Source of the DNA: Streptomyces rapamycinicus NRRL 5491
GTDB lineage: Bacteria; Actinomycetota; Actinomycetes; Streptomycetales; Streptomycetaceae
Assembly (NCBI RefSeq): GCF_024298965.1
Contig: NZ_CP085193.1
Location: 10,478,001 to 10,542,000, forward strand
DNA: 64,000 nt
Direction: 5' to 3'
How positions within the stretch are numbered: the stretch's first letter is position 1; each line of letters begins with the position of its first letter. The notes under the pieces were generated by a model, which saw only the letters and a program-made list of their open reading frames with translations, had not been told where the DNA came from and searched no databases. Shown one piece after another: positions 12,823-30,487 of this stretch. The position numbers and the translations under genes were made by a program.

Positions 12823-12887
12823 GGTCAGTGCCGGTCGGTACGGTCAGTGCCGGTCGGTACGGTCAGTGCCGGTCGGTACGGTCAGTA
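12823..12887. repeat. 19-bp tandem repeat, 3.4 copies
   Basis: Three identical copies of GGTCAGTGCCGGTCGGTAC at 12823-12879, then a partial GGTCAGTA copy whose TCA (12882-12884) is the stop codon of the lipoprotein gene. The array extends from that stop codon downstream of the gene. Confidence 0.9.
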
Positions 12888-13334
12888 CCGCACCGCCGTG
12901 CCCACGTTCGCCGTGATGCGGCCGGTGAGCTTGCGGTGGCTGCGGGCGGTGGCCGGAGTGGGCTGGTTCGGGGGCACCTTGGTCAGCCGCAGGACGACGG
13001 CGTCCACCAAGTCCCCGCTCGTGTTGCGGAAGTTGACCTCGATGGCGTAGCCGGCCGGGTGCTTGCTGCCGTTGGTCACGGTCAGCGGGGCCACGGCACG
13101 TCCCGCGCCGTCGCGGCTCACCCGGCCGACCTTCACCTCGCGCTTGGCCTGGGAGCCGCCCTTGATCTTGTCCAGCTCGGCCTGGGCCGACGCCCTCGCG
13201 GACGCGATGGCGGCGGAGGCCCGGGACACTTCGGACGACGGGGTGCCCCCGTCGTCCGAACAGCCGACGGCGGCCGGCGCCAGCACGGCCATGAGGCTCA
13301 CCGCGCAGATCGTCCGCGTTCGGCGCCCGCTCAT
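12882..13334 (-). CDS. Secreted lipoprotein of unknown function
   Basis: 150 residues with a type II signal peptide: Arg-rich start, hydrophobic core and lipobox LAPAAVGC, so it should be lipid-anchored on the outer face of the membrane. Beyond an Asp/Ser-rich linker and an Ala-rich helical stretch is a compact domain of about 90 residues with alternating beta strands (VAPLTVTNGSKHPAGYAIEV), resembling immunoglobulin-like FxLYD-type modules. GAGGGAG before ATG 13334 supports the start. No partner is evident. Confidence 0.75.
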   Translation of the reverse strand: MSGRRTRTICAVSLMAVLAPAAVGCSDDGGTPSSEVSRASAAIASARASAQAELDKIKGGSQAKREVKVGRVSRDGAGRAVAPLTVTNGSKHPAGYAIEVNFRNTSGDLVDAVVLRLTKVPPNQPTPATARSHRKLTGRITANVGTAVRY

Positions 13335-25930: not shown

Positions 25931-27136
25931 GTGAGCAGCGACAACGCAGCCCCGGACAATGAGACGGTATGGGACGTCGTCGTAGTGGGCGCGGGTCCGG
26001 CGGGTGCCTCCGCGGCCCATGCCGCCGCCTGCGCCGGGCGCCGGGTGCTGTTGTTGGAGAAGGCCGAGTTGCCGCGCTACAAGACCTGCGGCGGTGGCAT
26101 CATCGGCCCCTCGCGCGACGCCCTTCCGCCCGGTTTCGAACTGCCCCTGCGGGAGCGGGTGCACGCGGTGACGTTCTCGCTGAACGGCAAGCTGTCCCGC
26201 ACCCGGCGCTCCAAGCACGCGCTCTTCGGGCTGATCAACCGGCCGGAGTTCGACGCGGCCCTGGTCGACGCCGCCAAGGACGCGGGCGCCGAGGTCCGTA
26301 CGGGCGTCGCGGTCACCCGCGTCGAGCAGCACGGCCCGGCCGTGCCCGACCGGCGGACGGTCGCCGTGGTGCTCTCCGACGGTGAGACCGTGCTGGCGCG
26401 GGCCGTGGTCGGCGCGGATGGCAGCGCGAGCCGCATAGGCGCGCACGTCGGCGTGAAGCTGGACCAGGTGGACCTCGGCCTGGAAGCGGAGATCCCCGTT
26501 CCGGAGACCGTCGCGGAGGACTGGGCGGGCCGCGTGCTCATCGACTGGGGCCCGATGCCGGGGAGTTACGGCTGGGTCTTCCCCAAGGGCGACACCCTTA
26601 CCGTCGGCGTCATCTCGGCGCGCGGCGAGGGCGCCGGGACCAAGCGCTACCTGGAGGACTTCATCGCCCGGCTCGGCCTCGCCGGATTCGAGCCGAGCAT
26701 CTCCTCCGGCCATCTGACCCGCTGCCGCGCCGACGACTCGCCGCTGTCGCGCGGCCGGGTCCTGGTGTGCGGCGACGCGGCCGGGCTGCTGGAACCGTGG
26801 ACCCGCGAGGGCATCTCCTACGCGCTGCGCTCGGGCCGGCTGGCGGGGGAGTGGGCGGTGCGCGTCGCCGAGGCCCACGACGCGGTGGACGCCCGCCGCC
26901 AGGCCCTGAACTACGCCTTCGCGATCAAGGCGGGGCTGGGTGTGGAGATGGGTGTCGGCCGCCGTCTGCACACGGTCTTCGCCCGCCGCCCCGGGATGTT
27001 CCACGCGGCGATCACCGGCTTCCGCCCGGCGTGGCGCGCCTTCACGAAGATCACCCGTGGCACGACCACGCTGGGCGACCTCGTCCGCACCCACCCGGCC
27101 GCCCGCCGCGCCCTGGGGGCGATGGACCGGGGCTAG
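25931..27136 (+). CDS. Geranylgeranyl reductase family FAD-dependent oxidoreductase
   Basis: A 401-residue flavoprotein. The dinucleotide motif VVVGAGPAGASAAHAAA is at residues about 19-35, followed by LLLEKAELPRYKTCGGG, the PRYKxCGGG signature of geranylgeranyl reductases, and the second FAD motif VCGDAAGLLEPWTREGISYAL. It probably saturates double bonds of a prenyl chain, for example on menaquinone, as in actinomycete homologues. GTG 25931 is chosen; TTG 25913 would add six residues. It is monocistronic by spacing. Confidence 0.9.
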   Translation: MSSDNAAPDNETVWDVVVVGAGPAGASAAHAAACAGRRVLLLEKAELPRYKTCGGGIIGPSRDALPPGFELPLRERVHAVTFSLNGKLSRTRRSKHALFGLINRPEFDAALVDAAKDAGAEVRTGVAVTRVEQHGPAVPDRRTVAVVLSDGETVLARAVVGADGSASRIGAHVGVKLDQVDLGLEAEIPVPETVAEDWAGRVLIDWGPMPGSYGWVFPKGDTLTVGVISARGEGAGTKRYLEDFIARLGLAGFEPSISSGHLTRCRADDSPLSRGRVLVCGDAAGLLEPWTREGISYALRSGRLAGEWAVRVAEAHDAVDARRQALNYAFAIKAGLGVEMGVGRRLHTVFARRPGMFHAAITGFRPAWRAFTKITRGTTTLGDLVRTHPAARRALGAMDRG

Positions 27137-27149
27137 GGAGTGTCCGACG

Positions 27150-27250
27150 GACCTTGACGCCTGCGGCGGGCTGCTCTGAACGATATGCGGCTCCGCCGCG
27201 TGCGGGCTCGCACGGGTCGTCGCCGGGCGCCGCAGGTGTTCGGTTTGGGC
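27150..27250. repeat. Partial extragenic GC-rich repeat
   Basis: Contains ATGCGGCTCCGCCGCGTG, with the GCGGC-TCC-GCCGC hairpin at 27187-27199, nearly identical to the second hairpin of the repeat at 3573-3660. The flanks have diverged. The rest of this 268-bp gap holds no gene. Confidence 0.4.
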
Positions 27251-27329
27251 TTGCCCCACGTCCGGCGCGGCGGGGCGCCGGGTTCGGGTCGGCCCTGTCC
27301 CGCGATCTGCTCGGCAGGGCACGGGCGTC

Positions 27330-27345
27330 TACTCCGCCGGGAGTA
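27330..27345. promoter_or_regulatory. Palindrome upstream of the two-component operon
   Basis: Inverted repeat TACTCC-GCCG-GGAGTA, 60 bp before the histidine kinase start. NarL/LuxR-type response regulators often bind such sites, so autoregulation is possible. Confidence 0.4.
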
Positions 27346-27404
27346 GGCGCGGGCACCGCGCAGGGGGGACGCCTGGGCCGCGCCGCCGGTTTAGCGTTGC
27401 CCGT

Positions 27405-28640
27405 ATGCACGGATTCACGGGGGAGCACGGCCCGGGGCAGCGGCCGGGCGGATGGCGGCGCGGGGCGCCCTTCGACCCAGCGCGTTCGGCCGTGCCCTGG
27501 CGCTCCTCGGTCGCCATCGCCGTCATCCAGATGGTGGGCACCGGGTTCGCCGCACATGATCAGCCCGCCCGGGCGGGCCTCGGGCCCGGGAGCGCCGCGC
27601 TGCTGCTCGCCGGGCCCGCGCTGCTGCTCATGCGCCATCGCCGCCCCGGGACGGTCGTGGTCGGCACGGCGGTGGTGACCGCCGTCTACCTCGCCGCCGG
27701 TTATCCGTACGGGCCCGTCTTCCTCAGCGTCGTCGTCGCCTGTGTGACGGCCATCGCGGCCGGGCGGCGGATCGCCGCGTGGAGCGCGCTCGGGCTGTTG
27801 TGGGGGAGCCATCTGCTCATCGGCCACTGGCTCTACCGCTGGCTGCCGCCGGGCGACGACGGGCCCGTCGGATGGGGGCAGGAGCTGGTGGTCACCGCCT
27901 GGGCGGCGGCGATCGTGGCCGCCTCCGAACTCGTCCGCGTACGGCGTGAGCAGTGGGCCCGGGAACGGGCCGAACGGGAGGCGGCGGCGCGCCGCCGGGC
28001 CGACGAGGAGCGGCTGCGGATCGCCCGCGAACTGCATGACGTCCTCGCCCACAGCATCTCGGTCATCAACGTCCAGGCGGGCGTCGGGCTGGCCCTCCTC
28101 GACCAGGACCCCGAGCAGGCCCGCACCGCGCTGACCACCATCAAGGCGGCCAGCAAGGAGGCGCTGGGCGAGGTCCGACAGGTCCTCGACACCCTGCGGG
28201 CCTCCGGCTCCGGCGCGCCCGGCGCCGCGCCGCGCTCACCCGCGCCCGGCCTGGACCGGCTGGCGGAGCTGACCGGTCAGGCGGCGGACGCGGGGCTCGC
28301 GGTGCGGGTGGAGGTGGAGGGCGTACGGACGGCTCTGCCGCCGGGCGCCGATCTCGCGGCGTTCCGTATCGTGCAGGAGGCCCTGACCAACATCGTCCGC
28401 CACTCCGGCTCCCGGAACGCCCGTGTGCTGCTGCGCTATGCCCCCGGTGAGTTGGAGCTACGGGTGGACGACGATGGCCCCGCGACCGGGGACGGGGCGA
28501 CGGGCGGCGGCAACGGCCTGGTCGGCATGCGCGAGCGGGCCGCCGCGCTCGGCGGCACAGCGGAGGCGGGCCCGCGCCCGGACGGCGGCTTCCGCGTCCG
28601 GGCCAGGATCCCGTTCAAGGGTGGGAGGGAGAACCCGTGA
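27405..28640 (+). CDS. Sensor histidine kinase, HisKA_3 type
   Basis: 411 residues. The N-terminal half (about 25-165) has four or five hydrophobic helices with short loops, a DesK-like membrane sensor. The H-box is IARELHDVLAHSISVINVQ with His near residue 211, followed by a HATPase domain (N-box ALTNIVRHS, G-box GNGLVGMRERAAALGG). It phosphorylates the LuxR-type regulator encoded next. The signal is unknown. Its TGA is overlapped by the first copy of a 29-bp repeat that fills the gap to the regulator. Confidence 0.92.
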   Translation: MHGFTGEHGPGQRPGGWRRGAPFDPARSAVPWRSSVAIAVIQMVGTGFAAHDQPARAGLGPGSAALLLAGPALLLMRHRRPGTVVVGTAVVTAVYLAAGYPYGPVFLSVVVACVTAIAAGRRIAAWSALGLLWGSHLLIGHWLYRWLPPGDDGPVGWGQELVVTAWAAAIVAASELVRVRREQWARERAEREAAARRRADEERLRIARELHDVLAHSISVINVQAGVGLALLDQDPEQARTALTTIKAASKEALGEVRQVLDTLRASGSGAPGAAPRSPAPGLDRLAELTGQAADAGLAVRVEVEGVRTALPPGADLAAFRIVQEALTNIVRHSGSRNARVLLRYAPGELELRVDDDGPATGDGATGGGNGLVGMRERAAALGGTAEAGPRPDGGFRVRARIPFKGGRENP

Positions 28641-28741
28641 GGGACAAGGGTGGGAGGGTGACCCCATGAGGGATGAGGACGGGAGGGTGACCCCATGAGG
28701 GATGAGGACGGGAGGGTGACCCCATGAGGGATGAGGACGGG
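28637..28741 (+). repeat. 29-bp tandem repeat encoding chained mini-ORFs
   Basis: Copies start at 28637, 28666, 28695 and 28724 (last one partial). Each of the first three begins with GTG or ATG, encodes VRDKGGRVTP or MRDEDGRVTP, and ends in TGA that overlaps the ATG of the next copy (ATGA). The unit carries GGGAGG as a ribosome site. The last copy supplies the response-regulator start. The first GTG overlaps the kinase stop. Confidence 0.9.
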
Positions 28742-29416
28742 CCCGGGACCGTGATCCGTGTCGCGCTCGCCGACGACCAGCTCCTCGTCCGCGCCGGATT
28801 CCGCGCGCTGCTGGCCGCGCAGCCGGATATCGAGGTGGTCGGCGAGGCGGCGGACGGGGAGCAGGCGCTGGCGCTGGTACGGGAGCGGCGTCCCGACGTC
28901 GTCCTCATGGACATCCGCATGCCGGTGCTCGACGGCCTCGCCGCCACCCGGGGGATCACCGGGGACCCGGCCCTCGGCGGGGTGAAGGTGGTCATGCTGA
29001 CCACCTTCGAACTCGATGAGTACGTCTTCGAGGCGATCCGCTCCGGCGCCTCCGGCTTCCTGGTCAAGGACACCGAACCGGAAGAGCTGCTGCGGGCCGT
29101 GCGCGCGGTCGTCGGCGGCGACGCGCTGCTGTCGCCCGGGGTGACCCGCCGTCTCATCGCCGAGTTCGCGGCCCGGTCCAGGGAACCCGCGCCCGCGGCT
29201 GCGCTGGCGGAGCTGACCGAGCGGGAGCGGGAGGTGATGGCCCTGGTCGGCATGGGGCTGTCGAACCAGGAGATCGCCAGGCGGCTCGTGGTCAGCCCGC
29301 TCACCGCCAAGACCCATGTGAGCCGCACGATGGTCAAACTGGACGCCCGGGACCGCGCCCAACTCGTCGTGCTCGCCTATGAGTCGGGCCTGGTCCGGCC
29401 GGGCTGGCTCGGCTGA
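28724..29416 (+). CDS. Response regulator, LuxR/NarL family
   Basis: 230 residues. Receiver domain with acidic pair DD (17-18), phosphorylated Asp63 in VLMDIRMP, and LVKDTEPEE containing the conserved Lys. The C-terminal LuxR helix-turn-helix reads LTEREREVMALVGMGLSNQEIARRLVVS. It is the partner of the preceding kinase. The first six residues (MRDEDG) derive from the 29-bp repeat; GTG 28751 would be a start outside the repeat. Translation is probably coupled to the mini-ORF chain. Confidence 0.92.
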   Translation: MRDEDGPGTVIRVALADDQLLVRAGFRALLAAQPDIEVVGEAADGEQALALVRERRPDVVLMDIRMPVLDGLAATRGITGDPALGGVKVVMLTTFELDEYVFEAIRSGASGFLVKDTEPEELLRAVRAVVGGDALLSPGVTRRLIAEFAARSREPAPAAALAELTEREREVMALVGMGLSNQEIARRLVVSPLTAKTHVSRTMVKLDARDRAQLVVLAYESGLVRPGWLG

Positions 29417-29457
29417 GCGAGGCTCGGTGGTCCGGGCTCAGTGGTCCGGGGGCGTAA

Positions 29458-29566
29458 CCCTCCCCTCGGAACAGCCCCCTCGGAACAGCCCTTCCCCTCG
29501 GAACAGCCCTTCCCCTCGGAACAGCCCCTCCCCTCGGAACAGCCCCTCCGCTCAGAACAGCCCCTC
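29458..29566. repeat. 18-bp tandem repeat at the end of the DUF2797 gene
   Basis: About six copies of CCTCGGAACAGC plus a 6-nt variable part. On the minus strand the unit reads as the last codons of the DUF2797 protein (EGLF). The real stop TGA differs by one base from the CGA present in the other copies, which lie downstream of the stop. Confidence 0.85.
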
Positions 29567-30487
29567 CGGGGCCTCCGCCTCCCGCTCCCGCCGCGCCACC
29601 GGCGCGGTCGTCGGGGCGTCCGCCGCGGCCGCCGCCAGTGGCCAGCCCGCCAGCTGCCGGGTGTCCAGCAGCAGGGCCCGGCCGTCCGTCGAGGTCAGAT
29701 GGATGTCAGGGCCCGCCACGGCGTCGATACGACCGGCCACGGTGGTCTCGGGGGCGAGCTGGATCAGCCCCGGCGCGGGGCGCACCCGGTCCAGGTGGAA
29801 CACCGAGTCATGGTGTACCGGCTCGAACGGTGCCAGGGCCAGCGACTCCGGCAGACCGCCCAGGCCGCGCGCCCGCTGGTGGAGCGCGGCGAGGTCGGCG
29901 GCCCGTCGCTCCGGGGGCGGCGGGGCCTCGCGGGCGGTGCGCTTGGCGGCGTACGGGAAGCGGTCCGGGACGCCGAGCGCGGCGCCCAGCACGGCCTCGG
30001 CGCGGCGCGCGGCCATCAGCGGGCCGCGGCCCAGCAGACAGTACGAGAGCGCGGCCTGCTCCAGCAGCCGTGCCCCCTCCCGCTCGGCCGCGGTGATCCC
30101 GACCTTGACCAACTCCGGTCCGAACCAGGCGAGATAGACGTCGTAAGGGCGCGGATCGTCCGTACGGGTGTCGGCGGCCACGGAGTACGAGCGGTCCAGC
30201 CGGGCGCAGTCCGGGCACTGCGCCGATACGGCGGCGGCCGGGACCTCGGCCCCGGCCGGGCACGGGGTGTGCCGGGCGCCCCTTCGGACGCCGACGCAGG
30301 CGCGCCGGGGCCCGGTGGTGAACGAGAGCGGGCGGTCCGGCGTCAGCGGGGAGAGCCGTTCCCCCTGGGCCGGATGGCGCCAGACCAGCGCGGGCCCGTC
30401 GCGGCGCCAGCGCGCCCCGGCGCACTGCCACCGTGCGGGCTGCGGGTCCTGGCTCTGGCCGTGGCGCCGGCCCTGGCCCTGGGTCAT
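29552..30487 (-). CDS. DUF2797 family protein
   Basis: 311 residues. DUF2797 proteins have an N-terminal region with conserved Cys (here RACVGVRRGARHTPCPAG and QCPDCARL, a possible zinc site) and a GIY-YIG-like core, seen as YDVYLAWFGPELVKVGITAAER. Whether it is an active nuclease is unknown. ATG 30487 overlaps the preceding stop by one base (TGATG), so it is translated with the small membrane protein. The C-terminus is low-complexity and its codons were tandemly duplicated downstream. Confidence 0.8.
   Translation of the reverse strand: MTQGQGRRHGQSQDPQPARWQCAGARWRRDGPALVWRHPAQGERLSPLTPDRPLSFTTGPRRACVGVRRGARHTPCPAGAEVPAAAVSAQCPDCARLDRSYSVAADTRTDDPRPYDVYLAWFGPELVKVGITAAEREGARLLEQAALSYCLLGRGPLMAARRAEAVLGAALGVPDRFPYAAKRTAREAPPPPERRAADLAALHQRARGLGGLPESLALAPFEPVHHDSVFHLDRVRPAPGLIQLAPETTVAGRIDAVAGPDIHLTSTDGRALLLDTRQLAGWPLAAAAADAPTTAPVARREREAEAPEGLF

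Follow-up and report, generated by a model that had tools for sequence, protein, structure and literature searches.

What does a tandem repeat do when it sets a row of start-stop overlaps between a histidine kinase gene and the gene of its response regulator? A sequence-only reading of the window (the whole 64,000-nucleotide stretch of Streptomyces rapamycinicus NRRL 5491 DNA that was analysed) had taken such a repeat for a phase-variable or tunable rheostat of the kinase:regulator ratio. The two genes, both on the plus strand, encode a sensor histidine kinase of 411 aa (27405..28640; HisKA_3, E 8.1e-21; HATPase_c, E 1.1e-8) and, when read from ATG 28724, a NarL/LuxR-type response regulator of 230 aa (28724..29416; Response_reg, E 1.4e-25; GerE, E 3.5e-16). 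Because of these Pfam domains, we assign the open reading frames to a NarL-type two-component pair. Against ncbifam, none of the 6 rows for the kinase lay above the curated cut-off, nor did any among the best 25 of the 85 matches for the regulator. The closest named match to the pair is in S. sabulosicollis, with a nucleotide identity of 95.2% in the kinase part and 97.0% in the regulator part.

Anatomy of the 29-bp array and the regulator start

The array (28623..28741, plus strand) takes in the end of the kinase gene, three mini-ORFs and the 5' end of the regulator gene. TRF reported 4.1 copies with 92% matches and a score of 189, the highest among its 71 rows for the window. At 29-bp steps, a start and a stop codon overlap by 4 nt, as GTGA at 28637 and as ATGA at 28666, 28695 and 28724. 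The terminal TGA of the kinase ORF overlaps GTG 28637, from which mini-ORF 1 (28637..28669, plus strand) reads VRDKGGRVTP up to its stop at 28667-28669. Mini-ORF 2, from ATG 28666 (28666..28698, plus strand; stop 28696-28698), and mini-ORF 3, from ATG 28695 (28695..28727, plus strand; stop 28725-28727), both read MRDEDGRVTP, and the regulator reading frame from ATG 28724 begins MRDEDGPGTVIRVALADDQ... Three 10-codon mini-ORFs join the kinase stop to the regulator, and the earlier description of four overlaps spaced by 29 bp, with 10-residue mini-ORFs and a first GTG lying on the kinase stop, is confirmed by both the sequence and TRF.

What has been duplicated in tandem is the kinase-regulator junction, together with its Shine-Dalgarno (SD) site. 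Copies 1 and 2 share 24 of 29 positions; copies 2 and 3 are identical (29/29) and, therefore, recent. When both strands of 2.464 Mb of the organism's own genome, the window included, were searched for four RTGA motifs separated by one and the same 2-mod-3 distance (14-119 bp), with open mini-ORFs between them, this array was the single occurrence, and a chance origin of the four-overlap chain was ruled out on that count. Reading from the internal starts of the repeats, at 28673, 28687, 28702 and 28717, also ends on additional RTGA overlaps, and the array is thereby linked in a second frame. Two other tandem arrays were seen in the window, one of 18 bp in 6.3 copies right after the regulator (29458-29567) and one of 19 bp in 3.6 copies elsewhere (12823-12890).

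Where does the regulator begin? There are two candidate starts, ATG 28724 and the GTG at 28751..28753 (plus strand), which is in the same frame. A GGGAGG SD precedes every start in the array by about 8 nt. The predicted anti-SD pairing for 28637, 28666, 28695 and 28724 is -12.5, -12.5, -13.1 and -13.1 kcal/mol; for comparison, 1500 random 18-mers drawn from the window have their 1% tail at -12.0, and all four values lie at or past it. Strong SDs of this kind before each start could allow ribosome entry without coupling. The pairing predicted before GTG 28751 is -8.2 kcal/mol, and the start at 28724 is favoured for this reason, in line with the proposal that the last ATG of the array is the regulator start. 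On the other hand, most orthologous regulators start at the position of GTG 28751. A 7-codon mini-ORF, MRTGPGP (28731..28754, plus strand), ends in a TGA that overlaps GTG 28751; consequently, both starts are connected to the kinase.

Copy number at the junction in relatives and at a second array

The same junction was examined at 198 loci (L001-L198), with orthology assigned by best match only, so that distant rows may be paralogues. Thirteen loci were dropped, eleven because no start codon lay close to the conserved position (L058, L062, L067, L079, L087, L088, L094, L099, L105, L106 and L109), L068 for being too far and L185 for giving no kinase match, and the collapse of identical junctions left 173 distinct ones. 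At 142 of the 173, the kinase stop directly overlaps a start codon at the conserved position, and there is no insert; 30 carry an insert, and one (L074) has an overlap reading D=-22.

Among relatives with 91-97% nucleotide identity, the array takes different forms. In S. sabulosicollis and three other genomes (G096, G055 and G165), no 29-bp copy is present and a single RTGA lies 27 bp ahead of the conserved start. The nearest genome by identity (G396; 96.4/96.9%) has two RTGA motifs 28 bp apart, while in G381 a degenerate upstream copy is fused to, or read into, the kinase. The three-copy state is confined to the organism's own genome among the genomes examined, and a search of 61 genomes plus a second draw from the genus brought no new close relatives. 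The steps are unclean: the organism's own genome has three copies, G396 has one with a 28-bp step, G381 keeps a fused remnant and the other four relatives lack a copy. Compared between species, with one genome per species, copy number at the kinase-regulator junction is not conserved across close species; the comparison that the sequence-only reading had called for gave different numbers in close relatives.

Clear duplications of the flank that carries the SD and the start were found at the same junction in three other lineages, G139 (L009), Streptomyces sp. ISL-36 (L044) and Nonomuraea guangzhouensis (L086), where 16, 14 and 16, respectively, of 20 upstream positions are shared (the 99th percentile of the background is 13). 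At L066, in Virgisporangium ochraceum, a 128-nt mini-ORF built of ~15-bp repeats lies between kinase and regulator.

Sampled stretches of the same genome also contained a second chain array (L215:3168-3246, which corresponds to G000:C1:7503168). It separates a gene for a GFO/IDH/MocA oxidoreductase from a DUF993 gene and consists of two 38-bp copies, with a mini-ORF reading VTIHRLDVPEPSL up to its stop, and its SDs are weaker (predicted anti-SD pairing of -5.8 to -7.1). Ten genomes were searched and seven junctions were read, G180, G262 and G241 being left out. The number of extra 38-bp copies is three in G396, two in the organism's own genome, one in G096 and G381 and none in G165, G055 and G069; in all seven, the steps are whole 38-bp units and the mini-ORF is open. 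Copy number at the second array varies in whole units among close relatives.

How common are such events? In the 2.464 Mb of the own genome (L203-L322 plus the window), 53 tandem duplications span the stop of a coding-like frame, a count that depends on the chosen thresholds and a crude GC3 rule. Five of the 53, picked by eye, had copied the start of a coupled gene, with units of 29 and 38 bp (2 mod 3) and of 42, 30 and 15 bp (0 mod 3) and none of 1 mod 3, which are too few for a test. The three in-frame ones (L245, minus strand, 42 bp; L250:6170, plus strand, 30 bp; L306, minus strand, 15 bp) would lengthen the downstream protein. Long RTGA-rich arrays with units of 78 bp (L233:15785-16100) and 63 bp (L237:405-720) were also seen and, as far as tested, lie outside any two-gene chain.

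Reading frame and continuity across junctions

Since 29 is 2 mod 3, the start in each copy runs in frame into the TGA of the next. We simulated tandem duplications of 200 native -4 junctions of the own genome with 1-4 extra copies, coding calls being made by the crude GC3 rule. Over this whole range, 99.0-99.6% of the duplications with units of 2 mod 3 resulted in a mini-ORF chain. Units of 0 mod 3 gave an in-frame extension of the downstream protein in ~96%, and units of 1 mod 3 were broken in ~94% at 1 and 3 extra copies and connected in ~91-92% at 2 and 4. A simple rule for a duplicated 4-nt overlap follows: coupling is kept by units of 2 mod 3 whatever the copy number, it is lost at 1 and 3 extra copies with units of 1 mod 3, and units of 0 mod 3 lengthen the downstream protein. 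The claim that both genes survive a change in the number of copies was, thus, borne out in simulation, with the 2 mod 3 chain kept in at least 99% of cases.

The chain is nearly automatic, being what one third of all possible unit lengths should produce, and the array alone is, therefore, no proof of selection. We rejected on the same grounds the argument that the chain proves selection. The change of frame from copy to copy with a mini-ORF open in each, which the sequence-only reading had pointed out, is real; as a sign of design it loses its force, because it arises almost by itself when a 4-nt overlap is duplicated with a 2 mod 3 unit.

Do the inserts at related junctions keep the kinase connected to the regulator? 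The start on the kinase stop was followed through in-frame reading or -4 overlaps, with length-jittered shuffles as the null and L074 (D<0) left out. The P values of this test assume independence of genomes that are related and are, therefore, optimistic: 25 of 26 inserts connected to the regulator against 14.6 expected (P 4e-6), 27 of 28 against 15.7 when G396 and G381 were added (P 1.5e-6), and 21 of 22 against 12.2 with one row for the window's clade (P 2.8e-5). The 27 connected junctions comprise 13 that run through mini-ORFs and 14 that do so by in-frame extension, and 12 of the 13 junctions with an insert length that is not a multiple of 3 connect. The only unconnected junction is that of S. 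violens (L028), where the chain is broken; in four of the 30 junctions with inserts (L046, L091, L133 and L152), there is no start on the kinase stop. In G396 (35 then 20 nt) and G381 (20 nt), the 29-bp register is lost and the mini-ORFs still connect, both routes using an ATG that precedes the conserved GTG by 20 bp and corresponds to ATG 28731 in the window. Judged from these sequences, translational continuity does look protected across related junctions.

Explanations and known systems

We consider it probable that the array arose when a start/stop junction with translational coupling was duplicated in tandem, and that the resulting repeat is labile, safe for both reading frames and kept harmless by the preserved coupling, with a graded effect or none. 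The ancestral kinase and regulator would have overlapped by 4 nt. In the organism's own lineage, a first gain of ~27 bp at the junction would have been followed by the repeated duplication, 29 bp at a time, of a piece with the kinase tail, the SD and the ATGA; slippage between GGG runs is a probable cause. Ribosomes coming off the kinase could then pass along the copies by a series of terminations and restarts and so arrive at the regulator. Copy number would drift at little cost, since every copy is a 10-codon relay ORF, and it may slightly lower or raise regulator output, without switching it. According to PMC10666635, gaps of ~20-38 nt nearly abolished coupling in E. coli and H. volcanii reporters, the last 15 nt of the upstream gene were enough for it, and other studies are cited that describe coupling over longer gaps. 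By analogy with these reporter results, an uncoupled insert this long would be costly, and a 10-codon relay could work.

Could the copy number itself be under selection? A rheostat, in which the kinase:regulator ratio is set by a number of copies that selection tunes or that differs inside populations, would accord with the differences between close species at this junction, with those in 38-bp steps at the second array and with the addition of one termination-restart event per copy. Nevertheless, the effect expected per copy is small, because each copy has a full SD, and the second array lies between metabolic genes (GFO/IDH/MocA and DUF993) with no kinase ratio at stake. We regard such a selected rheostat as unlikely.

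Plain neutral slippage, with the regulator translated from its own SD at 28724, mini-ORFs that have no effect and no role for coupling, is in our judgement quite unlikely. The anti-SD pairing before 28724 (-13.1 kcal/mol) does lie beyond the 1% tail of the random 18-mers, and the site looks accessible, because the RNA there is not unusually structured (z +1.63); furthermore, stop-spanning tandem duplications are common in this genome (53 in 2.464 Mb). However, neutral slippage would not lead one to expect the excess of connected junctions, including the two close relatives that still connect in a changed register. This excess counts in favour of the reading as a coupling-preserving duplication.

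The insertion of a dispersed, mobile element of the MIRU type is highly improbable, even though the location between kinase and regulator and the -4 coupling are as in the MIRUs described in PMC12548453 and PMC4213456. The own genome (one contig of 12,466,108 bases) matches the array at one place, and four of 392 genus genomes match, the own genome included, at one place each. In the three relatives, the matches directly precede the same regulator start, and what stands at the relatives' junction is a degenerate copy of that junction and no sequence from elsewhere. The dispersed element was rejected, since neither the own genome nor the 392 genus genomes held dispersed copies. The least probable reading, that the repeat acts as an RNA structure, promoter or terminator between the genes, can point to promoter activity reported elsewhere for MIRU-containing intergenic DNA (PMC4213456) and was rejected because the array folds less stably than its shuffles (z +1.63) and a scan of 27100-29600, for one promoter type, gave no sigma-70-like promoter and no terminator-like site.

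What would follow if such repeats were widespread? It is a doubtful idea that start-stop junction repeats are recurrent, frame-safe tuners of expression in Streptomyces and related actinomycetes, in which a coupled overlap duplicated with a 2 mod 3 unit would yield a row of relay mini-ORFs and their fast-mutating number would set the ratio of two proteins in graded steps. If copy number did set output, operons would gain a graded, reversible and frame-safe way of evolving protein ratios. With 0 to 3 copies, the close relatives form a natural series in which the cost of each termination and restart could be measured.

Phase-variable simple-sequence repeats (contingency loci) share with the array a labile copy number and a unit that is not a multiple of 3. 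The array differs from them in that its copy changes put no gene out of frame, and it is for this reason not an ON/OFF switch. The earlier suggestion of phase variation, consequently, does not fit in the ON/OFF sense; kinase and regulator are intact at every copy number, and nothing is switched at any of them. The same distinction separates the proposed class of tuners from classical phase-variable repeats, as neither reading frame is at risk.

In bicistronic designs, a short leader ORF delivers ribosomes to the next start, as the mini-ORFs of the array would. Those leaders belong to synthetic biology (they are mentioned in PMC12548453), whereas the array is natural, tandemly repeated and placed between two genes of an operon.

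The closest precedent is the mycobacterial MIRUs between senX3 and regX3. In PMC12548453 and PMC4213456, the unit there is described as holding a short ORF coupled by a -4 overlap, and strains of the Mycobacterium tuberculosis complex as carrying three 77-bp units, or two of 77 and one of 53. Among titles and abstract openings in the open-access literature, none described start-stop mini-ORFs arrayed in tandem in Streptomyces. By those descriptions, MIRUs and the array have in common tandem repeats between histidine kinase and regulator genes, a short ORF in the unit and -4 coupling; 77 and 53 are, by arithmetic, also 2 mod 3, as is 29. The same descriptions set the two apart, as MIRUs are dispersed, apparently mobile and inserted at start codons, whereas the array is a local copy of its junction, at a single locus and with a 29-bp unit. 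Its pair is of the HisKA_3/NarL type, unlike that of the MIRU system. The array may, therefore, resemble the MIRU series in its working, and it is not one of them. The -4 overlap itself is the commonest gene spacing, according to PMC10666635, and each link of the array is a standard overlap of this kind for termination-reinitiation (TeRe) at ATGA/GTGA, with the SD inside the upstream ORF. TeRe usually involves one overlap between two genes; in the array, four stand in series, joined through mini-ORFs.
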